Below are positions 11,499 through 63,566 of a stretch of 64,000 bases of DNA, piece after piece (position 1 is the first letter of the stretch; each line of letters begins with the position of its first letter). The notes beneath the pieces are model-generated. The model had not been told where the DNA came from. It searched no databases and saw only the letters and a list, made by a program, of their open reading frames with translations. The translations under genes and the position numbers were made by a program. The DNA lies in contig NZ_CP029287.2 in the NCBI RefSeq assembly GCF_003201675.2, forward strand, positions 2,158,001 to 2,222,000. The letters run 5' to 3'. Origin of the DNA: Metallosphaera hakonensis JCM 8857 = DSM 7519 (GTDB lineage Archaea > Thermoproteota > Thermoprotei_A > Sulfolobales > Sulfolobaceae).

Positions 11499-11945
11499 AT
11501 GGTAGTTGAATCAAATTGTGAGATTCCCGAAAACCTTCTCTATTATATAGATGGTAAAAATACCGTGTGGGCCAAGCAGGAGTCATCAGATACTGTCTTG
11601 GTTGGAATAACTGATATTGCTCAGACCATGGCAGGTAAAGTGGTGAAAGTTAGGATAAAGAAAAAGGGTACGAAGCTAGAGAAAGGGAAGCCAGTTGCTA
11701 CAATGGAAAGTGGTAAGTGGGCAGGACCTGTTCCAGCTCCAGTCTCTGGAGAGATAGTGGACGTCAACGGGGAAGTGGAGAAGAGTCCAGTCCTGGTCAA
11801 CAGGGATCCCTACGGAAACGGTTGGCTCGTAAGAATGAAAGTTGCTAATCCGGAGGAACTGAAGCAATTATATACTGGGGCTCAGGCAGTCCAGAAACTT
11901 AAGGAGTTGGTAGCCTCGGAGAAGATATCCTGTAAGAGGCTCTGA
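11499..11945 (+). CDS. gcvH: Glycine cleavage system H-like lipoyl protein
   Basis: A 148-aa lipoyl-domain protein with the lipoylation site ESGKWAGP; the modified Lys is residue 73. The flanking hydrophobic pattern (VGITDIAQTMAGKVV before, PVPAPVSGEIVDVN after) is that of GcvH, which shuttles the aminomethyl group in glycine cleavage. Some sulfur oxidisers have GcvH-like lipoate carriers (LbpA) that work with sHdr complexes, so that alternative cannot be excluded, but no hdr genes are nearby. The lipoate ligase gene begins 1 nt after its stop, so the pair makes a modification operon. Confidence 0.9.
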   Translation: MVVESNCEIPENLLYYIDGKNTVWAKQESSDTVLVGITDIAQTMAGKVVKVRIKKKGTKLEKGKPVATMESGKWAGPVPAPVSGEIVDVNGEVEKSPVLVNRDPYGNGWLVRMKVANPEELKQLYTGAQAVQKLKELVASEKISCKRL

Positions 11946-11946
11946 A

Positions 11947-13041
11947 ATGTCTTGGAGGTTCATTTCCCTCCCTCCCCAAGACGGCTACCATATGGTTACG
12001 TCTTTTGTGTCAGTCGCAGACTACGTAACTAGGGGAGGGAAAGACACGTTTTTGGTTTTTTCAGTTAAGGAGCCATTTGTAAATGTAGGAGTTCATCAAG
12101 AAGTTTGGCTCGAGGTTGATCTCGACTACACTCTAAAAAACAAGATTCCTGTGGTGAGAAGGGATTTGGGTGGGGGGACAGTGGTCATAACTCAGGGTGA
12201 ACACGACTACTTCATTGTTTTGAAGCAGGACGAAGCTCCCTCCGATCCCAAAGCCCTTTACGAGAAATATCTCACTCCTGTGGTCTCTGTCTTAAAGGAC
12301 TACGGGTTAAATGCGTCCCTGAGAGATCAAGATATAGTAGTAAATGGAAGGAAGATAAGCGGAAATGGGGCCATGACCCACGGCAAGGCTGTGGTCATAG
12401 CTGGAAACATATTAATGAGCGTGGATACAAATCTCATGAGCAAGTGCATAAGGGTACCGTCAGAAAAGTTCAGGGACAAGATGGCTAAGGACATGTCGGA
12501 ATGGATCACGTCGTTGGAGAGAGAATTGGGATACGTTCCACCTAGGGAAGAAATAGACAAGAAGCTTAAAGAGAGCTTCCAATCCCACCTGGGAATCAAG
12601 TTTGAGGACTCATTCCTAACTCCAGAGGAAATAGAGAGATGGGAACAGCTTGCGGCAGAGAAGAGGAATGAGGAGTGGGTTTACTATAAAGATAGGAGAC
12701 ATCCAGAGTTAAGGACTGAAAGATGCGTGAAGATATCCTCTGCAGTAGCCATATGCCACATGGATTACAAGGCTAGGAAACTAGTTAGGATCACCGCTAA
12801 ATTCGTAGAGAAGAAGCTTCAGGAGGTTTCCATATCAGGCGACTTCTTCGTTATGTCTCCTAAGGGTTTCCTTGAGACGCTTGAGGATAAACTGAGTGGA
12901 GTTTCAGTGGACGCTATATCTCAGGTTATTGACTCGACCTTTACAGAGCTTAAGCCTGTGATATTCGGTTTCACGGCAGAAGATCTGAAGAAAGCCTTCC
13001 AAGAGATAATTAACAAGCCAGAGGTACAAGAGGTAATTTAA
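11947..13041 (+). CDS. lplA: Lipoate-protein ligase with fused C-terminal domain
   Basis: The 364-aa protein has the LplA lipoyl-binding motif RRDLGGGTVV with the following HDYF, and the catalytic lysine region VNGRKISGNGAM with HGKAVVIAGNIL. It should adenylate lipoate and transfer it to the adjacent GcvH-like protein. The last approximately 100 residues (LVRITAKFVEKKL to the end) look like the accessory (LplB/C-terminal) domain, which is a separate gene in Thermoplasma but is joined here. The gene follows gcvH by 1 nt. Confidence 0.9.
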   Translation: MSWRFISLPPQDGYHMVTSFVSVADYVTRGGKDTFLVFSVKEPFVNVGVHQEVWLEVDLDYTLKNKIPVVRRDLGGGTVVITQGEHDYFIVLKQDEAPSDPKALYEKYLTPVVSVLKDYGLNASLRDQDIVVNGRKISGNGAMTHGKAVVIAGNILMSVDTNLMSKCIRVPSEKFRDKMAKDMSEWITSLERELGYVPPREEIDKKLKESFQSHLGIKFEDSFLTPEEIERWEQLAAEKRNEEWVYYKDRRHPELRTERCVKISSAVAICHMDYKARKLVRITAKFVEKKLQEVSISGDFFVMSPKGFLETLEDKLSGVSVDAISQVIDSTFTELKPVIFGFTAEDLKKAFQEIINKPEVQEVI

Positions 13042-13051
13042 GAAAACAAAT

Positions 13052-13768
13052 CTAGATTGATACCACAGCTAGTATTTCTCTTTCCTCTACGCTTCCAAGA
13101 ACAGTGCGGGAATCCACAACGGGTAAGTAACCTATGTTTTCGGTTGACATTAACGTCCTGGCAGTCTCAAGGAGTGAGTCTGGAGTAACCTTGTACACTG
13201 GTCTTCTCATGATCTCAGAGGCTCTCGACTTAGCTTTTCCCTGAACTATGGACTCAGCAACGTCTCTAATTGAGATCACCCCAGCAGGCAAGCTCTCCTC
13301 AACGACTATTGCGTGCCTTTCCCAGTTCTCCTTCATGACATTAGCGATTTCCATAACGGAGGCATTAGGGGACGAAATCACTGGATCAACCTTCATTACG
13401 TCGCCCACCCTGGCCTCACCCTCAATACGACAACTCCTCAGCAGGTCCCTTTCCGTAACTATTCCCACCACCTTATCATTCTCGTAAACTAGGAGCGAAC
13501 CTACACCCTTTCCAGTCATGATTTTGGTTGCCTGCCTAACTTCTAAATCTGGTGATACCATTAGCAGATCCGTGGTCATTACGTCTTTAACCCGCTTTTT
13601 TCCCTCTAACCATCCATAAACCAGGTCCCTAACTGTTACTATCCCTAGCAAGTCACCTACAACTAGCCTTCTTATTCCCTTGGTAATCATTATCTTCATT
13701 GCGTCCTCTAGCTCAGAGTCAGGGTTGGACTTGATGAGCTCCTTGGTCATTACGTCTCTGATTTTCAT
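13052..13768 (-). CDS. Four-CBS-domain protein
   Basis: The 238-aa protein is built from four tandem CBS repeats (each about 55-60 residues with a V.DVM start and a GIVT.RD end), i.e. two Bateman modules, and nothing else. Such proteins bind adenine nucleotides or SAM and act as energy sensors. No catalytic domain is attached. A 40-aa cysteine microprotein lies 4 nt upstream in the same direction, so the pair is probably an operon. Confidence 0.9.
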   Translation of the reverse strand: MKIRDVMTKELIKSNPDSELEDAMKIMITKGIRRLVVGDLLGIVTVRDLVYGWLEGKKRVKDVMTTDLLMVSPDLEVRQATKIMTGKGVGSLLVYENDKVVGIVTERDLLRSCRIEGEARVGDVMKVDPVISSPNASVMEIANVMKENWERHAIVVEESLPAGVISIRDVAESIVQGKAKSRASEIMRRPVYKVTPDSLLETARTLMSTENIGYLPVVDSRTVLGSVEEREILAVVSI

Positions 13769-13772
13769 TTAA

Positions 13773-13895
13773 TCACGGTTTTGTAACTTTTAATGATGAA
13801 CATCTGGACAGACATTCCGATATGTCAGTATATTTCCACTCCCCTTTTGGCTTGAAACATTCTTCTACGCAAGGATCTGATGTAACAGCTTGCAT
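13773..13895 (-). CDS. 40-aa microprotein with twin CX3C motif
   Basis: A short gene, too small for ordinary ORF calling, from ATG 13895 to a TGA at 13773. The product is acidic at the N-terminus and basic at the C-terminus and carries CVEEC and CLSRC separated by 14 residues. That is the twin CX3C spacing seen in small disulfide or metal-binding helical hairpins, e.g. the mitochondrial small Tims; likeness, not homology. A TATA-like TTTTATAT is centred 26-27 nt upstream of the ATG, and the CBS-protein ATG lies 4 nt after the stop, both supporting a real translated gene. Function unknown. Confidence 0.65.
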   Translation of the reverse strand: MQAVTSDPCVEECFKPKGEWKYTDISECLSRCSSLKVTKP

Positions 13896-13916
13896 TTTTC
13901 CACCGATATCATTTTT

Positions 13917-13926
13917 CATATAAAAG
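13917..13926 (-). promoter_or_regulatory. TATA-like box for the twin-CX3C microprotein / CBS operon
   Basis: On the minus strand CTTTTATATG centred near 13922, about 26 nt before ATG 13895. It falls in the 79-bp divergent region to the gene at 13975. Confidence 0.45.
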
Positions 13927-13974
13927 GAAAAAACCTTTACGGGGGAAGTATCAATATATCCAAGTGGAATTTTG

Positions 13975-14418
13975 ATGGAAAAAGTGGGTAATCTAGAGCT
14001 CGAAGTCGAGGCTATAGTTGACATAGACGGAAACGAATATAAGGTAGTAAACGTTCCCTCAGCTGATGAGTATCGAGGCTTTCCTCCTTCCTGGGAATAT
14101 GTCAAATCGAACATGCTTACATGGAGGCCTTACTTTAAGGGAAGCATGATAGAATTCAACGGTCAGTTGATCCCCGCTGTGGGCCAATACCTACTCAATA
14201 TGGACGAGGAAATGTATAAGTTCCTCTTTGATATTTACCAGACCTTCAAGGTAAACAAACCTTCTATTGAGACAAATATCAGCGTGGTTATAACTAAGCA
14301 GATTGACGATATTGAACGCGAGCGTGGTAAGACCATGAGCGAGAACGAGAGAACTCAGCTCTACATTAGGTTCGCCATAGAAGCCGCGATATTCAAGGAT
14401 CTAGGATTGATCAACTAG
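13975..14418 (+). CDS. Hypothetical soluble protein, 147 aa
   Basis: I do not recognise a family. The ATG at 13975 is preferred over the in-frame TTG one codon upstream. The N-terminal half is strand-rich (LELEVEAIVDIDGNEYKVVNVP) with a WEYVKSNMLTWRPYF segment; the C-terminal half is helical with an ERTQLYIRFAIEAAIFKDLG ending. The N-terminus resembles a small SH3-like barrel by pattern only. It is 17 nt upstream of the OsmC-like gene and probably co-transcribed. Confidence 0.65.
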   Translation: MEKVGNLELEVEAIVDIDGNEYKVVNVPSADEYRGFPPSWEYVKSNMLTWRPYFKGSMIEFNGQLIPAVGQYLLNMDEEMYKFLFDIYQTFKVNKPSIETNISVVITKQIDDIERERGKTMSENERTQLYIRFAIEAAIFKDLGLIN

Positions 14419-14435
14419 TGTAATGGGTGATCCCC

Positions 14436-14849
14436 ATGATAACGTTCACTGCTGAAGGAAGACTTGATGGAGATAGCGCCCGTGTAACAATAAAGGACAC
14501 TGAACTTAAGATAGGCCTTATGGGTTCTGACGACCCTACTCCAGAAGAGGTTTTATTGGGGGCTGCCCTTTCATGTATGATATTAACAATATACTACATT
14601 TCGAGGGAGATGGGAGTACAGGTTAAGAACGTCGAGGGTTACATTGAGGGAACACTTGATCCAAAGGGATTTCAGGGTGATCCAAATATACCTCCAGGTC
14701 TCCTCCAAGTCAAATATGATCTAACGATCGATTCGGACGACGAAAGAATGGATGAGGTAATGAAGCTTTCCATGAGAAGATGTCCCCTTAAGGACACTTT
14801 AATGAGAAGGGTTGATGTGGACGTCTCGTGGAAAATCAGAAAGACTTAA
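14436..14849 (+). CDS. OsmC/Ohr-family redox protein
   Basis: Starting at the ATG at 14436 the protein has 137 residues, close to the family size. It has the two conserved cysteines in OsmC context: Cys47 in AALSCM (helix 2) and Cys116 in RRCPLKD. These form the peroxidatic pair that reduces organic hydroperoxides. The neighbours are a DsbA-like protein and a hypothetical gene, suggesting a redox or stress group. A GTG three codons upstream is an alternative start. Confidence 0.88.
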   Translation: MITFTAEGRLDGDSARVTIKDTELKIGLMGSDDPTPEEVLLGAALSCMILTIYYISREMGVQVKNVEGYIEGTLDPKGFQGDPNIPPGLLQVKYDLTIDSDDERMDEVMKLSMRRCPLKDTLMRRVDVDVSWKIRKT

Positions 14850-14881: not shown

Positions 14882-15214
14882 ATGTCTGAAGAGTTAATGA
14901 AACCTGGGGAAAAGGAGCTAGAGGAAATAAGAGGTTACCTATTCGATCTTCTAGACAACCTTAATAACCTTATTGAGAAGAATGAGAAGCTCCTGACCTC
15001 TAGGGGAATTATGCCAAGATTGGGAGTTCTCCTCGGAATGATTACAATGCAAAGGTATCAAATAGACTTGGTAATGAAGTATTATTGGAGACAGCTGGAA
15101 GAGGTAATTGGTTCCATGGGGCAGATACCAGAAATTCAAAACGATATGAAGGATATAATCCAAGACGTGGAGAAAATTAAGGAACTTCTCTCGTTATCTG
15201 GACTAAAACTTTGA
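14882..15214 (+). CDS. Hypothetical helical protein, 110 aa
   Basis: A mainly alpha-helical, Leu/Glu/Lys-rich protein with heptad-like stretches at residues 10-35 and 80-105 that could form a coiled coil, and a central hydrophobic stretch (MPRLGVLLGMITMQ). No known family. It follows osmC by 32 nt with a TATA-like AAGTTTTTACGAT between, so it may have its own promoter. Real by length and composition. Confidence 0.65.
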   Translation: MSEELMKPGEKELEEIRGYLFDLLDNLNNLIEKNEKLLTSRGIMPRLGVLLGMITMQRYQIDLVMKYYWRQLEEVIGSMGQIPEIQNDMKDIIQDVEKIKELLSLSGLKL

Positions 15215-15280
15215 TTTTTTCTCTAGAATGACGCGATCGTTTTAAAAAGTACATTTCATTATAAGTGAAGAGGAACCTTG

Positions 15281-15943
15281 ATGCAAATTACTTTCTTTCA
15301 TGACGTATTGTGTCCATTCTGCTACGTCACCAACAAGAGACTAAGGAAAATAGTCTCAGAATACAAAGACGTTCACGTAAAACATAAGGCCTTCATGATA
15401 ATTTCGTCCTTAGAGGATCTAGAGGCAGCAGCACCTACTCCTGAAGATGCCAGGGAACTCTTCAAGAGTGAGTTTTCTATTCTAACCAGGTATTTTCCAG
15501 ACTATGACCCAAAGAAAGTTCTAGATAAGGGTAAGATTGGACATGTTTGGTCCTTGCCTCCTCTGATGGCCTGTAAGGCCGCTGAGTTCCAGAAGGGAGA
15601 CGAGGGGCATTGGGAATACTTTAGCAGAGCCCAAGACAAGTTCTTTATGGAAGGGGAGAACGTAAACGACGATCAGGTTCTCATCTCCATCGCTGAAGAG
15701 ATAGGACTCGACGTGGAGAGATTTAAGAGAGACTTCAAGTCAAAGGAGGCTAAATTAGCAGTGATTCAAGACGAGGAGGAGGCCAAGGCCATGGGCATAA
15801 AGGGTGTACCGGCCCTTCTAGTGAACGAAAAGTGGCTTATAAGGGGTGTACAGTCGGAAGAATACCTGAAACAGGTTATAGATGACGTATTAACTTATGG
15901 AGAGCCTAAAAAAATAGAATTAAAAGCATATTGGGAACAATAA
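15281..15943 (+). CDS. DsbA-family (FrnE/HCCA isomerase-like) oxidoreductase
   Basis: The ATG at 15281 gives 220 residues. The thioredoxin-fold active site is CPFC at residues 11-14, directly after a QITFFHDVL strand; the cis-Pro loop KGVPALLVN appears near 180. This fits the cytoplasmic DsbA-like FrnE/HCCA-isomerase group; the CPxC motif favours a dithiol oxidoreductase over a glutathione-dependent isomerase. No signal peptide. Probably in the same redox set as the OsmC homologue upstream. The 268 bases after it (15944-16211) hold only a short palindrome CTCCATGGAG at about 16081-16090. Confidence 0.85.
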   Translation: MQITFFHDVLCPFCYVTNKRLRKIVSEYKDVHVKHKAFMIISSLEDLEAAAPTPEDARELFKSEFSILTRYFPDYDPKKVLDKGKIGHVWSLPPLMACKAAEFQKGDEGHWEYFSRAQDKFFMEGENVNDDQVLISIAEEIGLDVERFKRDFKSKEAKLAVIQDEEEAKAMGIKGVPALLVNEKWLIRGVQSEEYLKQVIDDVLTYGEPKKIELKAYWEQ

Positions 15944-17332: not shown

Positions 17333-18088
17333 ATGTCGAAGTTAATTCCACTTGAAAAGGCCTGGTCCATTGTTCGAATAGGTGACACGATTACCGTAAG
17401 TGGAATATCAATACATCGTAATCCCATGGCTTTTATCAAGTTTCTAGTTGACTATGAATACGAGGAAATGGGGTTTATTGATAGGGAACCTGGAGTAGCC
17501 CTGGAACTTCTCCTAAGGCATAACGTGGTTAACAGGGTCAGGGTGGCCATGGCTACATTGGAATGGTTTGGGATGTTACCTACGTTTAGGTATAAAGTGG
17601 AAAAAGGAGAGATTGAGTTTCTAGAGGACACCTGTGGAGCTTTCATAGCCGGGATTAGGGCAGGAGCAGCTGGCGTTCCATTTATGCCTGTGAAAGGAGT
17701 GTTGGGAAGCGATCTTGTGAAGATCCATGAGGAAGCTGGTACATGGAAGGTTTCTAAGGATCCATTTAGTGGAGAAGAAATAGTTCTGGTTAAGGCTATT
17801 CAACCTGACGTCGCGATAATCCATGTAAATAAGGCAGACGAGAACGGGAACGCAGAAATTATTGGCCCCCTATATGAAGATGAATATAAGGCTAAAGCGG
17901 CTAAGAAGGTCATCATTACTGCAGAAGAGATAGTAGACGAGAGTTACTTTTATGGTAAGAGACCCACAATAAATTCCGTGTATGTGGATGCAGTTATTCA
18001 TACTCCTAAAGGCGCTGAGCCCACTAGCATGTATCCATTATACGACGCTGATTACGAAGCCATATTGAAGCTGTTGGGCCAAGCTTGA
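17333..18088 (+). CDS. CoA-transferase family protein, alpha-subunit-like
   Basis: The 251-aa protein follows the class I CoA-transferase subunit A pattern: DTITVSGISIHRNPMAF at the start, RAGAAGVPFMPVKG near 110, ALVKAIQPDVAIIHVNKADENGNAEI-type core near 160, and a KKVIITAEEIVD strand. A beta-like subunit lies 206 bp downstream on the opposite strand. Substrate unknown; 3-oxoacid, glutaconate or cholesterol-ring-type IpdA families all resemble it. No membrane or signal segments. Confidence 0.8.
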   Translation: MSKLIPLEKAWSIVRIGDTITVSGISIHRNPMAFIKFLVDYEYEEMGFIDREPGVALELLLRHNVVNRVRVAMATLEWFGMLPTFRYKVEKGEIEFLEDTCGAFIAGIRAGAAGVPFMPVKGVLGSDLVKIHEEAGTWKVSKDPFSGEEIVLVKAIQPDVAIIHVNKADENGNAEIIGPLYEDEYKAKAAKKVIITAEEIVDESYFYGKRPTINSVYVDAVIHTPKGAEPTSMYPLYDADYEAILKLLGQA

Positions 18089-18100
18089 GGGTCATTTTTC

Positions 18101-18154
18101 GAGGCTTCCCTGAATAAAGGCGCAGATAACGTCGTTTCCAGGTGAAATATACAA
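18101..18154 (+). repeat. Dispersed intergenic repeat, copy 1
   Basis: This segment in the 206-bp gap between the CoA-transferase genes is clearly similar to the reverse complement of 48481-48536 (shared GCTTCCCT, GCAGATAACGTC and GGTGAAATA blocks) and less so to the reverse complement of 41888-41933. No open frame runs through it. Confidence 0.6.
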
Positions 18155-18294
18155 CCATAGCCGATAGACCTATTCATGAGTCGGGTTGAAGAGTAGCTCG
18201 TCTACTGCACATAAGATCTTAAATAATGAAGTTGCCCAAAAGTTAGCTCACAAACAATTCAATTAATTCAACAACATATTAAAGATTCACTAGT

Positions 18295-19014
18295 TTAAAA
18301 ATCATATGCTGATCTAAGTCCATAAGGATCTAGCATGTCAATATATCTTCTGTCATATTCGTGGAGAGCTACTACTCTATCAGAGTGCAGATCAACTGGG
18401 AAATCTGTGTTGTTAATTATATCATTGACTTCTGACCAGGGATATAACGCAATTATTTCCCATTTCTTTTTGTCTCTGTTATATCTTAGCACACCTAAGT
18501 TTGTAACAAGATAAACTTTGTTGTTTGAGTTCTTCGCTGTGCCGGTCACGAAATCAACCTTCTTAACCAGGGAGCTTTTTGAGTGTTTTAGGTTCCATAA
18601 TACCATCTTTTTAACAAGAGGCATCAAATACGCTGTGGCAGCTCCGCCAGGTAGCTTAACTGCGGGTTTTCTGTAATCCCCTATGGCTGTTAGGTTAACA
18701 TTGGTCTCTTGATCTATTTGAACTGGACCTAAAAACATAACATCGAGTTTACCCTTCTGGGCCAAGTCAAAGGAGTCGGCTGTTATCATCACGGGAGAGC
18801 CTTCCAAGAAGAAAGGATCCCCTGTAGACGGCGAAAGAACAATGCTCTTAGGGTTAAAGGCCTCTGCTACACCTACTATATGAATACTTTTCCTAAGTAA
18901 GTCTCTAGCTAAGAAAGTCCCAAGTAACGCTGGGCCTGAATTAAGACCGACATATACTAACTCATCATCGCATAATATCTCGGCTATAGCCTTAATTACG
19001 TAATCTACTCTCAT
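18295..19014 (-). CDS. CoA-transferase family protein, beta-subunit-like
   Basis: The 239-aa protein resembles subunit B of class I CoA-transferases: a DELVYVGLNSGPALLG segment where the classical enzymes carry the catalytic Glu in an SENG-type turn, then LPGGAATAYLMPLVKKM, KVDFVTGTAK, and VYLVTNLGVLRY. The usual catalytic Glu is not seen at the expected place. Such Glu-less pairs include IpdB, part of a ring-opening hydrolase, so the pair may not be a transferase. It is convergent with the alpha-like gene, not in an operon with it. Confidence 0.75.
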   Translation of the reverse strand: MRVDYVIKAIAEILCDDELVYVGLNSGPALLGTFLARDLLRKSIHIVGVAEAFNPKSIVLSPSTGDPFFLEGSPVMITADSFDLAQKGKLDVMFLGPVQIDQETNVNLTAIGDYRKPAVKLPGGAATAYLMPLVKKMVLWNLKHSKSSLVKKVDFVTGTAKNSNNKVYLVTNLGVLRYNRDKKKWEIIALYPWSEVNDIINNTDFPVDLHSDRVVALHEYDRRYIDMLDPYGLRSAYDF

Positions 19015-20802: not shown

Positions 20803-21408
20803 ATGGACTTTCTTGTGACACCTCCTGGTCAATTTACTGGGGATGAGGAGCGGGAGCCGACTTCTACTCCCGCAATACCGGGGGGTGTCCACGAAGCTGA
20901 GTTTAAGAATATGAGGACGAACGTGATTCGTCTCCTTCCAAACGGTTCACAACGTAAAAAACTACTGAAGTTAGCGGACACTTCTGCGAAGTTGTTCAAC
21001 GAGATAAACTACGAGAGGAGGCAACAGTTCTTTCGAGAAGGAAAGGTGGACTTCAAGGGGACGTGGGGTAAGTGCTACGAGAAGTACAAGGGTGTACTTG
21101 GTGTCAACGCTCAGGCTGTGATGAAGAACAACGAGGCGTGGTCGTCCTTCTTCTCCCTTCTGAAGCTGAAGAAACAGGGAAAGTTACCGCCCCACATGGG
21201 TCGCGTTTCTCCTCCACGTTATTGGAAGGATAGGGAGAGCAAGGAGAGGGAGAAGATACTGGTGGTTAGGCAAGACCGTTACGAAGTGCATGAGGAGAGT
21301 CATAAGATCGTCCTCAAGGACTTCATGGAGATCGATTTTGAAGGTAGACTTAGATGGTACGGTAAGCAAGGTAGGCTGGAGATAATTCAGTGGTGTTTCA
21401 CCAATTAA
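20803..21408 (+). pseudogene. tnpB: tnpB, 5' fragment (cut by IS insertion)
   Basis: This encodes the first 195 residues of a TnpB protein that matches the uninterrupted N-terminal part of copy 2 at 61971, with a few substitutions. The IS4-like element enters after codon 195 and adds six foreign residues before a stop. A functional product is not expected. The region corresponds to the REC/wedge domains upstream of the RuvC core. Confidence 0.85.
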
Positions 21409-22849
21409 GTTCATCTAGATGATATATAGTTTGTACTTTTAATTATTGATTGATATAGAGTAAATGTTGATTAAACATAATGAAACATAACATGTTTAAG
21501 TATTTTTGGACATATTTAGCCAGTATATTCGATCAAGATCAGTGGATTCTGAATTTTTCTCACGTGGTTGGGAGGACGTGCATAGCCCACCCTGCACGCC
21601 CCGGTTTTTAGAGAAGTTTGATGAAGGAGTCGAAGGAGATGAACTTCTTGCCTGGAGTGACGTAGCCGAAGACGACACGGTTGAACAGGTTCCACGCGTT
21701 GTCCAGTATCGTGTAGTAGAGGAAGAGGAAGACCTTGTTCCTGAGCTTCCTCACCAGCTCTATCCTGGCCTTCTTGACCTTGAAGCCCTCCTCGATCTGC
21801 CACCTTAGCCTGTAGAGTTCAGCTAAGGTGTAGGGGTCGCCCTTGAAGTTGGTGACGAAGGTGAAGTGCCTGGGCCTCTCCTTGTCCTTCACGTAGACCA
21901 CGTCGTAGTAGTAGAGGCCGTCGAGCTCCAGCTCCCTGTACGCCACGTAAGTCCTGTCTTCCACCTTCCTTACGCTCTCCTGGAGACGAAGGGAGGAGAG
22001 CTGCTGAAAGCCCTTCAACCCGGACTTCCCCCTCACCACGACCTTCACGGGCATCTCCCTCAGTACCTGGAAGTTGAGGAAACCCGCGTCTGCGAGCACG
22101 TAATCTACCTCCACGTGCTTCACGACCTCCTGCACCGAGTGGAGGAGGAAGAGAGAAGGGCTCTCTCCTCTCAGGTCGGCGAACTGGAGCATGAGGGAAC
22201 ACCTCACTGGGTGAACTAAGTCCACGCTCCTGGCCTTCACTCCCTTCCTCCTCCACGGGATGAGTCCAACTCCGTCCCTCAAGGCCTCCAACTCCCCCTT
22301 CTCCCCCACCGTGAGCCCGCTCTCGTCGACTGCAAGCACGGTCCCGAACTTCCCCTTACCCACCTTCCCGCACTGGTCCCAGAACGTGAAGGTCTTGCCC
22401 ACAAGCGAGCCCAACCCCTCTCCCAACCTCGTGAGGTACACGTAGTCCTTCCCCCTGTTCCCCTGAAGTAGGGAAGGAGCTGCCTGGACCAGCTTCTCAG
22501 GATTGGGGGAGATAAGTTTAAACTGCTCCAATGCCATAACTTGAGCGAGGGACTCCAACCTCTCTTGGGAGTACACGGGAACTTGTACTCCTTCTATCAT
22601 GGTTTGCATAGTGGGGCTCTGGGGTCCCTCGCTTAAATCTTTTCTCCCTCAACTCCACCCCGCTTGATAATACTAGACATTTAGTATTACAGCACGCGGG
22701 AAAACACGTCTCCTCTCGTCTTCTTCGCGCTTAATTCAATCTGTCTCGTCCATCACAAGGAAATTAAACGTATTTCTCCAACTTAACGAGAGATATAACC
22801 GTGTTTAAGAAATTTCCTCTTAATGAGTAAAATTGGTGTAACACCACTG
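21388..22849 (-). mobile_element. IS4-like insertion sequence, copy 1 (1462 bp)
   Basis: The ends are 19-bp imperfect inverted repeats starting CAGTGGTG, with one mismatch between the two ends. The element is flanked by a 9-bp direct repeat, GAGATAATT (21379-21387) and CAGATAATT (22850-22858), which differ at the first base. Removing the IS and one repeat restores the tnpB reading as in copy 2. It has exactly the same length as the copy at 52692-54153 and lies in the opposite orientation. Confidence 0.92.
21608..22609 (-). CDS. IS4-like DDE transposase
   Basis: The 333-aa enzyme has a DDE triad in IS4-like context: Asp95 in AVDESG, Asp174 in LADAGF, and Glu273/274 in YRLRWQIEEGFK, which matches the Y(2)R(3)E(6)K signature. 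It would catalyse cut-and-paste movement of this IS. It differs from copy 2 at only a few residues (for example Glu/Lys at 103, VV/TM at about 190) and has no frameshift, so it may be active. Its codons are clearly richer in G+C than the host genes. Confidence 0.93.
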   Translation of the reverse strand: MQTMIEGVQVPVYSQERLESLAQVMALEQFKLISPNPEKLVQAAPSLLQGNRGKDYVYLTRLGEGLGSLVGKTFTFWDQCGKVGKGKFGTVLAVDESGLTVGEKGELEALRDGVGLIPWRRKGVKARSVDLVHPVRCSLMLQFADLRGESPSLFLLHSVQEVVKHVEVDYVLADAGFLNFQVLREMPVKVVVRGKSGLKGFQQLSSLRLQESVRKVEDRTYVAYRELELDGLYYYDVVYVKDKERPRHFTFVTNFKGDPYTLAELYRLRWQIEEGFKVKKARIELVRKLRNKVFLFLYYTILDNAWNLFNRVVFGYVTPGKKFISFDSFIKLL

Positions 22850-23652
22850 CAGATAATTTACCATGAGGACACGGACAGGTGGTACGCCCACATACCCGTT
22901 GAGGTAGGCGTTGAGACCACTAAGAGAGGTAAAAAGTCTAAACACGTAGTTCACGGTGAGAGGAGGTCAATTCAAGTTTCACCGAAAGGTAATAAGGTGG
23001 CTTCCATTGATCTGGGTGTAAACGTTTTGGCAAGTGTAGTGGTGGACGACGGCACTTGGTATACAAGGGTATCAGAGCTAAGGAGGACTACTTTCACTTC
23101 GAGAAGAGGGTTGCTGAAGTTCAATCACTTGCCCACAAAGCTAGAAACGTAGGTGAGTGTGAGGCCTACGAGGAGTTAACGAGAGGGAAGAGGAGGTTGT
23201 TCAAGAAGTTACAAAGAAGGTTCCTCCATGTATACAGAACATTGGCGAGAGGTATCGTTGAGGAACTTCACGAGCTTGGCGTATCCACCATCTACCTGGG
23301 CTATCCTTACAGCATTGGGCAGGATAAGGGCAACAAGTACACGGTGAACGTATGGTCTTACCGTAAACTCATTGACGCAATCGAACTTAAGGCTCAGGAG
23401 TACGGTATGAAGGTGTATGAAGTAGTTGAGTACAACACGTCCAGACTATGCGCTTATCATAACGTTGAGGTGAGGAGGAAACCAAGGGGAGTAATAACGT
23501 GCCCACTCAACCACAAATTACACAGCGACTTGAACGGTGCTTTGAACATTCTAAGGAAGTCCGTGGGAAAGGTCATCAACGCGGTAAAGAAGCCTCTCTC
23601 CTTCATCGTAGACCATAACCGAATAGCTCCCGTAAAGGGGAGTAACCCTTGA
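22850..23652 (+). pseudogene. tnpB: tnpB, 3' fragment with additional frameshift
   Basis: It continues the TnpB protein after the IS. Near 23059 four bases present in copy 2 (after GGCACTTGG) are missing, which shifts the frame, so the RuvC core is split into two frames. Recognisable parts are RuvC-I IDLGVN, a GYPY segment where RuvC-II Glu is normally found, a CxxH/CxxxH finger replacing CxxC/CxxC, and RuvC-III SDLNGALNI. The element is doubly dead, but the 3' structured RNA region is intact. Confidence 0.85.
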
Positions 23653-27113: not shown

Positions 27114-28250
27114 TCAAATGGATCCTTTCCACCATCTTGCCTTAATCTTCTCAAGTACCCTAGGTATGTTGATCTTCATGGGGCAAACCTCCTTGCATCC
27201 ACCAGAATGAGTGCAGAGCATAGCAGGTTTAGGATCTCCATAAACCATGTATGACCACATCGCTCCCATGGGACCTGTGTAGGGTGGTACCCCCCAGTTT
27301 CCATCCAGAACCCTATACACAGGACAATGTAGATGGCATCTCCCACATCTAATACAGAGGAGGGCTTCCCTAAGTTCAGGGTCTTTAGATGCTTTGATTC
27401 TACCGTTATCCACAAGGACCAGGTGAAATTCCTTGGGTCCATGGGCTGGGCTAACTCTCTTCATTTCTATGTCACCCGTTGAGCTTGGCCCAGAGGTCAG
27501 GTTTACGTAAGTCGGCGGATAAAGGCCAGCATATGCGGCCTGAACCATCGCCTCCATCATTGCATGAGGTAAGGTTGGAACGATCTTCTCGAATCCTGCC
27601 ACTGAAATGTGAACAGAGGGAGACACAGTTGTGAACCTTATGTTTCCCTCGTTCTCCACAAGGATTATGGATCCGGTGTCAGCAGCTACCGCATTAGCCC
27701 CAGTTATTCCCACTTCTGCATTCACGAATTTATCTCTTAAAAACTCCCTCACTTTAGCTACTATCTGTTCGTGGGTCGAGTTAGGTGGAAGACCACCCAA
27801 AACATCTCTCACCAACTCCTCTGCTCTCTCCTTCGACATGTGAATTGCGGGGGCAATTATGTGTGAAGGCGGTTCATTGGCTAGCTGAATAAGAAACTCA
27901 CCTAGATCGGTTTCCCATACATCCTTCCCTAGGTTCTTGAGGTGCTCCCTTATTCCTAGCTCATAAGCTACCATTGACTTTCCTAGCACTATCTTTTTCC
28001 TATCCCCAACAATCTTGGCCACAACCTCTCTACCTTCCTCAGAACTACTAACTACGTGGGGAATACCACCTACTCTCTTCACCGACTCGACTGTCTGATC
28101 AATGTACCTCTCAAGGTTATTTAGCACCTCAAGCTTGGCGTCCCTAAGCTCCTTAGCCAATTCCTTAATGTAGGGATGCCTCTCTAAGACGTCATAAACC
28201 CTAGGGACATTGTTCTGAATAGTCCTATTAATGGCTATTTCCCAGCTCAC
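27114..28250 (-). CDS. LutB-like iron-sulfur protein (LUD domain + two 4Fe-4S motifs)
   Basis: The 378-aa protein starts with a LUD-type domain ([36 protein letters not shown]) and ends with ferredoxin-like clusters: [12 protein letters not shown] and [12 protein letters not shown]. This is the LutB/LldF architecture, in which electrons from lactate or glycolate oxidation pass through the clusters. It overlaps the LutA-like gene by 4 nt. With the FAD protein at 30226 it may form a D-lactate or glycolate dehydrogenase complex in the cytoplasm, membrane-associated through partners. Confidence 0.85.
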
Positions 28251-29113
28251 AGTATCACCTCAGCTATGTCCTTGACCTCTCCCTTGAAGTAGGGAGAGAG
28301 GGTAACGTAACATATGGGACACATGACCAGAAGCCTTTTTGATAACTTGTTAAGGTTCTCGGCTCTTTTCTTCGCGATCGCCTCGCTCAATTCCCTATCA
28401 AGTCCTGCAATAGGTCCTCCACAGCACGTAGACGTCTCTTTCCCTGTAAGGAGGAAACCCTCCTTGAGCTTTACCCCAGATTCATTGACCATGTCCCTAT
28501 ATTTATCTCTCAAATTCAAGAACCTTGAGTACAGGCAAGAGTCGTGTATTGTGAACTCCTCATCAACTCTCTTCTCAGGTCTAACTAGCTCCAGGTAGTT
28601 TATTACCTCGACCTTGAAATCGATGAATTCCCCATATCTGGTTAGTGCATTATGGGTGTGTGGATCTACGGTGATTATCCTCTTGATCCCATGTTCTTCT
28701 AAAATCTTGGAGACCTTCTTAGCGTGTTCTGTGAACTCTTCGAGTAAACCCATTTCCAGGAGCAGGGCGCCGCTATAGGGCTCTTCCTCATAGAGGTAAC
28801 CAGGGTTTATCCCTCTTTTCCTTAAGGCATTTATAATGTTATTAAGAATGTTATATGCCCTGTCTAACTCTTCCTTAGGCGGTTTAACAAACTTAGCTAG
28901 GGAAGACAGTCCCTTGAGAACCCCAGCCATGGATGAAAATTTGCTCAACGTTGGCACTACGGGTTCGACCTGATACATGCAGGACGTGAAAATTATGGTT
29001 TCTCCTCCCTTGGGAAGGTCTCTCGCCCATCCCGAGCAAACCCTCTTATCTACAGGGAAGGGCATCCCGTACTTTTCAAGGCTATCAATCAGGAGTGAAC
29101 GTAGACTTTCCAT
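28247..29113 (-). CDS. LutA-like CCG-domain Fe-S oxidoreductase
   Basis: A 288-aa protein with a cysteine-rich CCG pattern: CMYQVEP near residue 35, HDSCLYSRF near 190, TSTCCGGP near 235 and CPICYV near 268. CCG domains are shared by LutA, GlcF and heterodisulfide reductase HdrB and ligate Fe-S clusters. It is the upstream partner of the LutB-like gene with a 4-nt overlap, so the two are clearly co-translated. The first CCG half is less complete than usual, so the cluster content may differ from LutA. Confidence 0.8.
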
Positions 29114-37175: not shown

Positions 37176-38456
37176 GAGAGTGTCCCGAACGCAAATAATT
37201 GAATAAATCTATGTACAAGTTCATGGAGAATTTTTCAGAAGAGAAGATAAATTGGTGAGAAATTTTGAATTTTCTTTTAACGTTAAAGGTCGCGTAATAC
37301 TTATAGGGAACCGGGACGTTGTAATACCGATCGATATGAAACCGTGGATACAATACTACAACGGTCCGGTTCCCTACGAATACTTGTCATCGTGGCATAA
37401 AACTCTTGTGAAAATGAACTACATGTTGGTCACGTCGGAGGTGTTGTCGCGTCTAGATGACTTCGTGTTGAGGGCGTTGATAGTCATGGTCGTGTGGAGG
37501 TGTTCCTACAGGAACGTGCGGAGCTTCTACATGACTGACGTGGTGGTAAGGTGGTTCCTAGGGGAGTGCAAGTCCAAGTCGGAGATCCACAGGAGAGCCA
37601 AGGGATTTAGGGAGGTGTTCAAGGAGGCCTTCAAGGAACATGTAAAGGAGTTGGAGGGGAAGTTGAGCGCGCTAACTGACTACCTGCCCAGCAGCGCGTT
37701 ATATGGGAAGGTCTGGAAACTTTGGGCTGTGGACTCCTTCATAATCGAGGTCCCCTTCGGGAAGAGGAACAGGGAGACCTTGAAGAAGAAGATCCGGCTG
37801 AGCCTGAAGCAGAGGAAGTACAGGGACTTGCCCAAGTTGCTCTACCAATTCGTGAACTGCAAGATAAGCAGGAGGTTCAAGGGCGAGTTCACCAAGAAGA
37901 GGAATCGAAGTTACTTCGGCTTTAAGGTCTTCATAGCGATATCGCCTACCATGTTGGTCCACGAGATTCGGGTGAAACTGGCCAACTTCCCTGACAACGA
38001 GGTCGACTTCTTCCTAAGCGGTTACAAGATAGCCGACAGGGGATTCGTGGGGAAAACGTCGACCTGGTTGATCGGCTTCCCCAGTTTCAGGAGGCACGTG
38101 GAGTTCTTCGGGACCTTCTTGAAGAACTACTGGAGACCCTACGCGGTTGACAGGGAGATGACCGAGCTCTTCGTCTACGTCATCGCGTTGATCTACAACT
38201 CCTCGATGTACACCTCGGTCCTGTCTAGGGTCCCCGAGGCTCAGCTCGCCCATTGACTTCTCGCGCGATTCGAGTGGGGTAGTGAGGAGTATGTTGAAAA
38301 TTCTGTTTTTCTCCACAATTGGTTAATTTGCCTTACAGTATAAGATCGATCTTCAGTTACACTGAAAGATATAACTGTATTTCATCCTTAAAATCTTATA
38401 ATATTATATTTCTCTCTTGATATTTTTATTCAATTATTTGCGTTCGGGACACTCTC
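37176..38456 (+). mobile_element. Insertion sequence with 32-bp perfect inverted repeats (1281 bp)
   Basis: Both ends carry the same 32 bases starting GAGAGTGTCCCGAACGC (37176-37207 and, inverted, 38425-38456) and the flanks show a 4-bp TTGA repeat (37172-37175 and 38457-38460). A single transposase gene fills the element. A second, decayed copy is at 59425-60765. The family is not identified with certainty; DDE-type and perhaps IS5-like. Confidence 0.88.
37252..38256 (+). CDS. DDE-type transposase of the 1281-bp IS
   Basis: A 334-aa transposase, basic, with likely catalytic Asp in WAVDSFII and YKIADRGFVG and a C-terminal segment RPYAVDREMTELFVYVIALIYN holding the candidate Glu. It starts with TTG or GTG (37252/37255). 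A 15-codon reading frame (ATG 37211 to TGA 37258) overlaps this start in another frame and may couple translation. The same gene in the copy at 59501 is frameshifted. Intact here, so likely functional. Confidence 0.85.
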   Translation: MVRNFEFSFNVKGRVILIGNRDVVIPIDMKPWIQYYNGPVPYEYLSSWHKTLVKMNYMLVTSEVLSRLDDFVLRALIVMVVWRCSYRNVRSFYMTDVVVRWFLGECKSKSEIHRRAKGFREVFKEAFKEHVKELEGKLSALTDYLPSSALYGKVWKLWAVDSFIIEVPFGKRNRETLKKKIRLSLKQRKYRDLPKLLYQFVNCKISRRFKGEFTKKRNRSYFGFKVFIAISPTMLVHEIRVKLANFPDNEVDFFLSGYKIADRGFVGKTSTWLIGFPSFRRHVEFFGTFLKNYWRPYAVDREMTELFVYVIALIYNSSMYTSVLSRVPEAQLAH

Positions 38457-52721: not shown

Positions 52722-54153
52722 GAGGAAATTTCTTAAACACGGTTATATCTCTCGTTAAGTTGGAGAAATACGTTTAATTTCCTTGTGATGGACGAGACAG
52801 ATTGAATTAAGCGCGAAGAAGACGAGAGGAGACGTGTTTTCCCGCGTGCTGTAATACTAAATGTCTAGTATTATCAAGCGGGGTGGAGTTGAGGGAGAAA
52901 AGATTTAAGCGAGGGACCCCAGAGCCCCACTATGCAAACCATGATAGAAGGAGTACAGGTTCCCGTGTACTCCCAAGAGAGGTTGGAGTCCCTCGCTCAA
53001 GTTATGGCATTGGAGCAGTTTAAACTTATCTCCCCCAATCCTGAGAAGCTGGTCCAGGCAGCTCCTTCCCTACTTCAGGGGAACAGGGGGAAGGACTACG
53101 TGTACCTCACGAGGTTGGGAGAGGGGTTGGGCTCGCTTGTGGGCAAGACCTTCACGTTCTGGGACCAGTGCGGGAAGGTGGGTAAGGGGAAGTTCGGGAC
53201 CGTGCTTGCAGTCGACGAGAGCGGGCTCACGGTGGGGAAGAAGGGGGAGTTGGAGGCCTTGAGGGACGGAGTTGGACTCATCCCGTGGAGGAGGAAGGGA
53301 GTGAAGGCCAGGAGCGTGGACTTAGTTCACCCAGTGAGGTGTTCCCTCATGCTCCAGTTCGCCGACCTGAGAGGAGAGAGCCCTTCCCTCTTCCTCCTCC
53401 ACTCGGTGCAAGAGGTCGTGAAGCACGTGGAGGTAGATTACGTGCTCGCAGACGCGGGTTTCCTCAACTTCCAGGTACTGAGGGAGATGCCCGTGAAGAC
53501 CATGGTGAGGGGGAAGTCCGGGTTGAAGGGCTTTCAGCAGCTCTCCTCCCTTCGTCTCCAGGAGAGCGTAAGGAAGGTGGAAGACAGGACTTACGTGGCG
53601 TACAGGGAGCTGGAGCTCGACGGCCTCTACTACTACGACGTGGTCTACGTGAAGGACAAGGAGAGGCCCAGGCACTTCACCTTCGTCACCAACTTCAAGG
53701 GCGACCCCTACACCTTAGCTGAACTCTACAGGCTAAGGTGGCAGATCGAGGAGGGCTTCAAGATCAAGAAGGCCAGGATAGAGCTGGTGAGGAAGCTCAG
53801 GAACAAGGTCTTCCTCTTCCTCTACTACACGATACTGGACAACGCGTGGAACCTGTTCAACCGTGTCGTCTTCGGCTACGTCACTCCAGGCAAGAAGTTC
53901 ATCTCCTTCGACTCCTTCATCAAACTTCTCTAAAAACCGGGGCGTGCAGGGTGGGCTATGCACGTCCTCCCAACCACGTGAGAAAAATTCAGAATCCACT
54001 GACCGTTATCGAATATACTGGCTAAATATGTCCAAAAATACTTAAACATGTTATGTTTCATTGTATTTAATCAACATTTACTCTATATCAATCAATGATT
54101 AAAAGTACAAACTATATATCATCTAGATGAACTTAATTGGTGAAACACCACTG
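52692..54153 (+). mobile_element. IS4-like insertion sequence, copy 2 (1462 bp)
   Basis: 19-bp inverted repeats start CAGTGGTG at both ends (one mismatch) and the element is flanked by a perfect 9-bp direct repeat, TCTTTAACT (52683-52691, 54154-54162). Same length as copy 1 at 21388 and in the opposite orientation; the few nucleotide differences and the perfect duplication suggest a more recent insertion here. Confidence 0.94.
52932..53933 (+). CDS. IS4-like DDE transposase
   Basis: A 333-aa enzyme nearly identical to the one at 21608: the same Asp95, Asp174 and YRLRWQIEEGFK. It differs at residues such as Lys103 for Glu and Thr-Met for Val-Val near 190 and an Ile for Val near 278. No frameshift; probably active. 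A TATA-like AGATTTAAG lies upstream around 52900, inside the element. Confidence 0.93.
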   Translation: MQTMIEGVQVPVYSQERLESLAQVMALEQFKLISPNPEKLVQAAPSLLQGNRGKDYVYLTRLGEGLGSLVGKTFTFWDQCGKVGKGKFGTVLAVDESGLTVGKKGELEALRDGVGLIPWRRKGVKARSVDLVHPVRCSLMLQFADLRGESPSLFLLHSVQEVVKHVEVDYVLADAGFLNFQVLREMPVKTMVRGKSGLKGFQQLSSLRLQESVRKVEDRTYVAYRELELDGLYYYDVVYVKDKERPRHFTFVTNFKGDPYTLAELYRLRWQIEEGFKIKKARIELVRKLRNKVFLFLYYTILDNAWNLFNRVVFGYVTPGKKFISFDSFIKLL

Positions 54154-59500: not shown

Positions 59501-60565
59501 TTGGTGAGAAATTTTGAATTTTCTTTTGACGTTAAAGGTCGCGTAATACTTATAGGGAACCGGGACGTTGTAATACCGATAGACATGAAACCGTGGATAC
59601 AATACTACAACGGTCCGGTTCCCTACGACTACTTGTCATCGTGGCATAAAACTCTTGTGAAGATGAACTACATGTTGGTCACGTCGGAGGTGTTGTCGCG
59701 TCTAGATGACTTCGTGTTGAGGGCGTTGATAGTCATGGTCGTGTGGAGGTGTTCCTACAGGAACGTGTGGAGCTTCTACATGACTGACGTGGTGGTAAGG
59801 TGGTTCCTAGGGGAGTGCAAGTCCAAGTCGGAGATCCACAGGAGAAGGGATTTAGGGAAGTGTTCAAGGAGGCCTTCAAGGAACATGTAAAGGAGTTGGA
59901 GGGGAAGTTGAGCGCGCTAACTGACTACCTGCCCAGCAGCGCGTTATATGGGAAGGTCTGGAAACTTTGGGCTGTGGACTCCTTCATAATCGAGGTCCCC
60001 TTCGGGAAGAGGAACAGGGAGACCTTGAAGAAGAAGATCCGGCTGAGCCTGAAGCAGAGGAAGTACAGGGACTTGCCCAAGTTGCTCTACCAATTCGTGA
60101 ACTGCAAGATAAGCAGGAGGTTCAAGGGCGAGTTCACCAAGAAGAGGAATCGAAGTTACTTCGGCTTTAAGGTCTTCATAGCGATATCGCCTACCATGTT
60201 GGTCCACGAGATTCGGGTTAGTGTTTCTGGCAAGTTCTTAGTTGGAGACCAGAGATTTTTAGGGTAAATACTTACTGGAACTACTAGTGAAACTGGCCAA
60301 CTTCCCTGACAACGAGGTCGACTTCTTCCTAAGCGGTTACAAGATAGCCGACAGAGGATTCGTGGGGAAGTCCTCGACCTGGTTGATCTTCCCCAGTTTC
60401 AGGAGGCACGTGGAGTTCTTCGGGACCTTCCTGAAGAACTACTGGAGACCCTACGCGGTTGACAGGGAGATGACCGAACTCTTCGTCTACGTCATCGCGT
60501 TGATCTACAACTCCTCGATGTACACCTCGGTCCTGTCTCGGGTTCCCGAGGCTCAGCTCCATTGA
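59501..60565 (+). pseudogene. Transposase pseudogene of the decayed IS
   Basis: It is the same transposase as at 37252, but the frame is lost at about codon 116 by a 4-nt deletion and again at 60219 by the 68-bp element. Three separate frames (59501-59890, 59800-60267, 60287-60565) together cover the whole protein. It cannot be functional. Confidence 0.9.
60219..60286. mobile_element. 68-bp miniature element, copy 1
   Basis: TAGTGTTTCTGGCAAGT at the left end pairs imperfectly with the inverted right end (TAGTAGTTCCAGTAAGT), 12 of 17 positions. The insert is absent from the intact IS at the matching site, and the GT at the target is duplicated (60217-60218, 60287-60288). The second copy at 61691 has exactly the same length. 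Confidence 0.75.
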
Positions 60566-61970: not shown

Positions 61971-63566
61971 ATGGACTTCCTTGTGACACCTCCTGGTCAA
62001 TTTACTGGGGATGAGGAGCGGGAGCCGACTTCTACTCCCGCAATACCGGGGGGTGTCTACGAAGTTGAGTTTAAGAATATGAGGACGAACGTAGTTCGTC
62101 TCCTTCCAAATGGTTCGCAACGTAAAAAACTACTGAAGTTAGCGGACACTTCTGCGAAGTTGTTCAACGAGATAAACTACGAGAGGAGGCAACAGTTCTT
62201 CCGAGAAGGAAAGGTGGACTTCAAGGGGACGTGGGGTAAGTGCTACGAGAAGTACAAGGGTGTACTTGGTGTCAACGCTCAGGCTGTGATGAAGAACAAC
62301 GAGGCGTGGTCGTCCTTCTTCTCCCTTCTGAAGCTGAAGAAACAGGGAAAGTTACCGCCCCGCATGGGTCACGTTTCTCCTCCACGTTATTGGAAGGACA
62401 GGGAGAGCAAGGAGAGGGAGAAGATACTGGTGGTTAGGCAAGACCGTTATGAAGTGGATGAGGAGAGTCATAAGATCGTCCTCAAGGACTTCATGGAGAT
62501 CGATTTTGAAGGTAGGCTTAGGTGGTACGGTAAGCAAGGTAGGCTGGAGATAATTTACCATGAGGACACGGACAGGTGGTACGCCCACATACCCGTTGAG
62601 GTAGGCGTTGAGACCACTAAGAGAGGTAAAAAGTCTAAACACGTAGTTCACGGTGAGAGGAGGTCAATTCAAGTTTCACCGAAAGGTAATAAGGTAGCTT
62701 CCATTGATCTGGGTGTAAACGTTTTGGCAAGTGCAGTGGTGGACGACGGCACTTGGTTGTTATACAAGGGTATTAGGGCAAAGGAGGACTACTTTCACTT
62801 CGAGAAGAGGGTTGCTGAAGTTCAATCACTTGCCCACAAAGCTAGAAACGTAGGTGAGTGTGAGGCTTACGAGGAGTTAACGAGAGAGAAGAGGAGGCTG
62901 TTCAAGAAGTTAGAGAGGAGGTTCCTCCATCTATACAGAACATTGGCGAGAGGTATCGTTGAGGAACTTCATAAGTTGGGCGTATCCACCCTCTACCTGG
63001 GCTATCCTTACAACATTGGGCAAGATAAGGGTAGCAAGTACGCTGTGAACGCATGGTCTTACCGTAAGCTCATTGACGCAATCGAACTTAAGGCTCAGGA
63101 GTACGGCATGAAGGTGTATGAGGTAGTTGAGTACAACACGTCCAGACTATGCGCTTATCATAACGTTGAGGTGAGGAGGAAACCTAGGGGAGTAATAACG
63201 TGACGATGTCCGGAATGCAAATATTTCGACGAAAATATTGATATAGAAACAAGAATTTTTCTAGGTATAAGGTTATATCTGGATAACCTGTAAACCGTCT
63301 ATCGTGAGACCCCATTCCCCGAGATAGATGATCCGAATTACCGGTAGAAAAATGATAAAAACATAAATATTTTCTACAATATAAATTGAATTTTTTACAT
63401 TCCGGACATTCTCACGTGCCCACTCAACCACAAATTACACAGCGACTTGAACGCCTTGAACATTCTGAAAAAGGCCACGGGAAAGGTCATCAACGCGGTA
63501 AAGAAGCCTCTCTCCTTCATCGTAGACCATAACCGAATAGCTCCCGTAAAGGGGAGTAACCCTTGA
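61971..63566 (+). pseudogene. tnpB: tnpB, interrupted by a MITE
   Basis: The frame from ATG 61971 runs 410 codons to a TGA created at the MITE border (63201-63203). The rest of the C-terminal finger and RuvC-III (CPLNH, SDLNALNIL) continues after the MITE to a TGA at 63564-63566. RuvC-I IDLGVN is intact. At the expected RuvC-II site the sequence is YLGYPYNIGQ, with no acidic residue. The finger has CxxH and CxxxH. Without the MITE the protein would have about 460 residues. Confidence 0.85.
63203..63413. mobile_element. 211-bp MITE inside tnpB
   Basis: It is bounded by a 5-bp direct repeat, ACGTG (63198-63202 and 63414-63418); copy 1 has the uninterrupted site. ATGTCCGGAATG at 63206-63217 and its inverse at 63398-63409 form the terminal repeats. 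Inside are two stems, AGGTTAT/ATAACCT (63270-63289) and CTATC/GATAG (about 63299-63327). No coding capacity. Its parent IS is not visible in this window. Confidence 0.8.

Follow-up and report, generated by a model that had tools for sequence, protein, structure and literature searches.

A 40-residue microprotein gene with paired cysteines in Sulfolobaceae, its divergent D148-OsmC neighbours and its linkage to sHdr-LbpA genes

Is an ORF of 40 codons marked by two CX3C motifs a gene, and what might its product do? The question is raised by a locus of the Metallosphaera hakonensis genome, contained in the window, i.e. the whole stretch of 64,000 nucleotides that was analysed. The ORF, hereafter called MICRO, encodes MQAVTSDPCVEECFKPKGEWKYTDISECLSRCSSLKVTKP, in which the cysteines are arranged as CX3C-X14-CX3C. 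A reading of the sequence alone had proposed an unlisted short gene at this place, carrying a twin CX3C hairpin of the kind seen in small Tim-type chaperones or metal hairpins, preceded by a TATA-like box and followed by a CBS gene as its possible partner. The features of the locus are listed in Table 1.

Table 1. Features of the MICRO locus in the window
Feature	Position	Strand	Basis or remark
LbpA-type lipoate-binding protein	11499..11945	+	Pfam GCV_H, E 3e-42; GcvH fold
Lipoate-protein ligase	11947..13041	+	LplA-B_cat and ligase C-terminus; Pfam E 5e-35
Four-CBS-domain protein	13052..13768	-	Pfam CBS x4; downstream of MICRO in 16/30 genomes
MICRO, 40-aa microprotein gene (predicted cysteine hairpin)	13773..13895	-	Stop included; ORF reading, homologues, selection
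GGTG, Shine-Dalgarno-like site	13901..13904	-	5 nt before the MICRO ATG
AAAGGAAAAAACCTTT inverted repeat	13923..13938	.	Shared divergent promoter region; AAAGG-N6-CCTTT
D148, divergent 148-aa protein, constant neighbour of MICRO	13975..14418	+	Gene-neighbourhood comparison
OsmC-family protein, two conserved Cys	14427..14849	+	Pfam OsmC, E 2.4e-15; alignment
H110, 110-aa protein	14882..15214	+	Same direction as D148-OsmC; no family match
DsbA-like thioredoxin-fold oxidoreductase with CPFC	15278..15943	+	Pfam DSBA, E 4e-26

A conserved gene of 40 codons

The CX3C-X8-20-CX3C pattern occurs once in the six frames of the window. As 0.15 occurrences are expected by chance (first-order Markov resampling), the motif by itself would be weak evidence, and conservation is decisive. 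Homologues of MICRO were identified in 17 genomes, that of the window included, by a protein search of 31 relatives, and a profile built from these homologues revealed the gene in 30 of the 31 Sulfolobaceae genomes, never in more than a single copy. When the search was widened to 147 genomes from the order and 398 from the phylum, no credible MICRO was found outside the Sulfolobaceae; the matches obtained there were weak and partial (E >= 8e-4, 20 columns at most), several fell within long ORFs, and all were judged to be due to chance. MICRO has no model in Pfam, NCBIfam and PHROGs. The compared genomes include those of M. javensis, M. yellowstonensis, Ca. Aramenus, Sulfolobales archaeon Acd1 (G015) and strain A20 (G010), as well as G003, G008 and G013, which, from kinship to named records, we take to be M. 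sedula, Sulfurisphaera tokodaii and Sulfodiicoccus, respectively.

Substitutions in MICRO are largely silent. Ten synonymous and 0 non-synonymous differences separate M. sedula from M. javensis; between the window and M. sedula, 23 changes were counted at 25 synonymous sites (pS 0.92), and 7 at 95 non-synonymous sites (pN 0.07). The pattern argues strongly for purifying selection on the protein. The family-wide homologues and the synonymous bias confirm, at the level of sequence comparison, that the short ORF proposed earlier is a real, previously unrecognised gene. The Shine-Dalgarno-like GGTG is found shortly 5' of MICRO in 17 of the 26 upstream regions that were aligned, and supports the ATG at 13895. 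A longer in-frame ORF extending to 14114 (113 aa) was discarded as spurious: relatives align from the N-terminus of the 40-aa form, and several feature a stop just upstream.

Divergent neighbours and the shared promoter region

D148 was identified in all 31 Sulfolobaceae genomes, and adjoins MICRO in divergent orientation in 29 of 30, the two genes being usually separated by 57-84 nt. OsmC comes next, with H110 behind it in most genomes; the DsbA-like gene is found also in the G013, G018 and G003 clusters. D148 could not be assigned to any known family at significant scores, the similarity of its C-terminal region to the AF2331-like profile (PF14556) being weak (E 0.006) and below the Pfam cut-off. 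The D148 model (pLDDT 94.6) features an N-terminal beta part and three C-terminal helices, and finds no PDB match below E 0.2. Going by this model, D148 is possibly a new fold tied to sHdr genes. The D148 gene of one genome, G011, overlaps with the stop codon of a gene for a LutB-like LUD/iron-sulfur protein, beside a CCG-domain protein (L072 4741-6311). A similar LutB/CCG pair, not accompanied by D148, resides at 27114-29113 of the window.

The inverted repeat between the two divergent genes lies at a distance of ~35 nt from the start codon of MICRO and 44 nt from that of D148, a position suited to overlapping promoters. Each of four Metallosphaera genomes has a single exact AAAGG-N6-CCTTT motif, always between MICRO and D148; looser AT-rich palindromes are found in other genera. 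Because exact copies are limited to this locus in the four genomes, the palindrome does not mark a wider regulon. The repeat may be the site of a regulator, or back-to-back BRE/TATA elements. The TATA-like box assigned to MICRO lies in a region that is indeed conserved, but conserved as an AT-rich palindrome common to the promoter of the divergent gene.

Other elements of the window were noted in passing. Two CoA-transferase-like subunit genes (alpha/beta style) at 17333-19014 are convergent and do not form one operon, as is also the case in G003 and G018. The ORF list also contains two nearly identical transposase-like ORFs of 333 aa (21608-22609 and 52932-53933) and, at 20803-23652 and at 61971-63203, OrfB-like transposase ORFs. 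Related transposase-like ORFs reside at 37252-38256 and at 59501-60565, where the reading is spread across several frames.

Linkage to sHdr-LbpA genes

LbpA and specific ligases define the Hdr-like (sHdr) sulfur pathway, the genes of which are scattered over several operons in Sulfolobaceae, as stated by Cao et al. 2018 (PMC6067878). The genes hdr, dsrE3A and tusA are present in every member of the family according to PMC11323534. The LbpA-type protein of the window carries cysteines near both ends, and matches in this the two-cysteine description of LbpA in PMC6067878.

Coordinates were compared for 11 genomes with MICRO, and each of them has an LbpA-type gene within ~8 kb of it. The arrangement is variable. 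In G013 the genes are contiguous in the order DsrE3-TusA-HdrC1-B1-A-hyp-C2-B2-LbpA-LplA-MICRO/D148-OsmC (we named hdrC1, B1, A, C2, B2, DsrE3 and TusA on the basis of gene order, of the character of the sequences and of a CCG search). Acd1 has D148-OsmC embedded within its hdr cluster, and MICRO immediately beside a second LbpA gene. In G006, LbpA-LplA follows MICRO after 55 nt in the same orientation. LbpA-LplA is more distant or otherwise oriented in g3 and the g6 genomes. The MICRO locus shares with the sHdr-LbpA module described by Cao et al. 2018 (PMC6067878) the genes for LbpA and the ligase, in G013 together with DsrE3-TusA and the entire hdrC1B1A-hyp-C2B2 set. It differs in that the components listed in the available portions of that paper do not include MICRO, and in that one sHdr-bearing genome is devoid of it.

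The exception is G011, which has an intact sHdr-LbpA-LplA cluster, with D148 and OsmC at other places in the genome; MICRO was not detected there even at E 10 (genome 91% complete, one contig). A component of the module should be encoded near hdr, lbpA or lipoate-ligase genes and be present wherever the module occurs; MICRO does lie near such genes, and is missing from G011. Hence MICRO is not indispensable and is at most an accessory part, its occurrence following D148-OsmC linkage and not sHdr itself. In the portions of the literature available to us, PMC6067878 and PMC11323534 included, no mention was found of MICRO or of the D148-OsmC operon, nor of OsmC in sHdr loci.

Cysteine pattern, predicted fold and possible roles

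Residues C13, W20 and C28 alone are invariant in the 24 aligned MICRO members, E27 being nearly so. All four cysteines are found in 23 of 30 genomes; the remaining seven (g4, g10 and Acd1) miss both C9 and C32. These two residues are jointly present or jointly absent in all 30 genomes, and none has just one. In the two-cysteine group, position 9 is occupied by P or L; at position 32, g4 and g10 have His, and Acd1 has Leu. The twin CX3C is therefore a feature of the window and of most relatives, but not a universal one, and a homologue search of the kind suggested by the sequence-only reading finds the cysteines kept, with the inner pair invariant. Such a paired loss of C9 and C32 would be expected of an antiparallel hairpin in which C13-C28 forms the inner and C9-C32 the outer pair. 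As it reflects one or two evolutionary changes on the D148+OsmC tree, the paired loss is suggestive, not statistically strong.

Helices spanning residues 8-14 and 25-37 were predicted by AlphaFold with modest confidence (mean pLDDT 69), which makes the hairpin layout suspected earlier plausible. From its cysteines and predicted helices, MICRO is probably a small antiparallel hairpin stapled by disulfides. No signal-like hydrophobic stretch can be read in the protein, which is thus likely cytosolic. Disulfides inside the cell are a well-known trait of thermophilic crenarchaea.

Small Tim chaperones share with MICRO the CX3C-X14-CX3C spacing, the predicted two-helix hairpin and the expected inner/outer disulfide pairing. 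Kinship to them was rejected, since profile, Pfam and fold searches were all negative. The zf-Tim10_DDP model matches one of 24 MICRO members, not significantly (E 0.098); a PDB profile search gave Tim13 (3cjh_A), at E 0.072 and over a short motif only; Foldseek, run with the MICRO model, gave no informative match (best E 6). In contrast to small Tims, in which the twin CX3C is expected to be invariant, seven MICRO genomes keep the inner pair alone; the setting is archaeal and cytosolic, the length about half, and there is no sign of a hexameric chaperone. The comparison holds only as an analogy of layout.

Our preferred reading, to which we assign a probability of about 0.6, is that MICRO specifies a Sulfolobaceae-specific, disulfide-stapled helical hairpin, produced from a shared divergent promoter region, which would serve as an accessory or adaptor of the sHdr-LbpA module and bind a neighbour. 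Starting from the gene, its conservation, cysteine pattern, start-site support and linkage, and from the two predicted helices, we infer disulfides, co-expression, partner and function as follows. Helix 1 (~8-14), a loop with the invariant W20 and helix 2 (~25-37) would pack antiparallel in the cytosol, stapled by a C13-C28 disulfide and, in most lineages, by an outer C9-C32 disulfide. MICRO would be expressed together with D148-OsmC-H110 and assist, as a small accessory or adaptor, lipoate-dependent sulfur oxidation; D148, OsmC and LbpA are the most likely partners. Binding, regulation or sulfur carriage may each be its biochemical role. A bolder version, which we consider rather unlikely, makes MICRO a dedicated thiol/sulfane-sulfur adaptor of archaeal sHdr-LbpA oxidation, an independently evolved stapled hairpin acting in the cytosol with D148 and OsmC.

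It is rather unlikely that MICRO is a thiol or persulfide shuttle, with a redox-active C13/C28 pair carrying sulfane sulfur or disulfide equivalents, the outer pair serving for stability only, and TusA/DsrE3, lipoyl-LbpA, OsmC and the DsbA-like protein as partners. The inner pair is the sole invariant cysteine pair, and the neighbours handle thiols (OsmC through its two conserved cysteines, the DsbA-like protein through CPFC, LbpA through its lipoyl group). However, neither a thioredoxin-like CXXC motif nor any established carrier fold is present in MICRO, a structural staple would account just as well for an invariant pair that joins two helices, and G011 keeps the hdr cluster in the absence of MICRO. 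TusA/DsrE sulfur carriers are also small, have conserved cysteines and are encoded with sHdr genes, but differ in size, have no detectable homology to MICRO, and adopt folds other than the helical hairpin predicted for it.

A metal-binding hairpin (Zn or Cu) with four cysteine ligands is improbable; metal hairpins had been named as one option by the earlier reading. Four cysteines in CX3C pairs are available in 23 genomes, and the His replacing C32 in the g4 and g10 genomes could still ligate, but the P or L replacing C9 could not. With Leu at position 32, Acd1 is left with two ligands, a loss which metal sites rarely tolerate. The four-cysteine site is thus not borne out, because seven genomes retain the inner two cysteines alone, and Cys/His is not conserved at all four positions.

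That MICRO acts with the four-CBS protein, as its partner (the earlier proposal) or as its regulator, is quite improbable. In the window, 4 nt indeed separate the MICRO stop from the CBS ATG (13768), and a same-strand CBS gene follows at 0-9 nt in 16 of 30 genomes, where the two are probably co-transcribed. Yet the expected synteny fails in the other 14, in which lipoate ligase, LbpA or fumarase-like genes take its place, and linkage to D148 is far stronger. The CBS partnership appears weak and lineage-dependent.

That MICRO is a leader peptide or an incidental ORF over conserved RNA or promoter DNA is very improbable: it is short, cysteine-rich and beside a divergent promoter region, but the synonymous bias is overwhelming, and the downstream gene differs between lineages, so that there is no fixed attenuation target.

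MICRO is a 40-residue gene conserved throughout a family of heat- and acid-loving organisms, yet not represented in the family libraries searched. With the caveat that the same genes may also be present in poor sulfur oxidisers, MICRO and the D148-OsmC operon, near-universal in Sulfolobaceae and linked to sHdr-LbpA genes, are concrete candidates for accessory parts of the sHdr-LbpA machinery.
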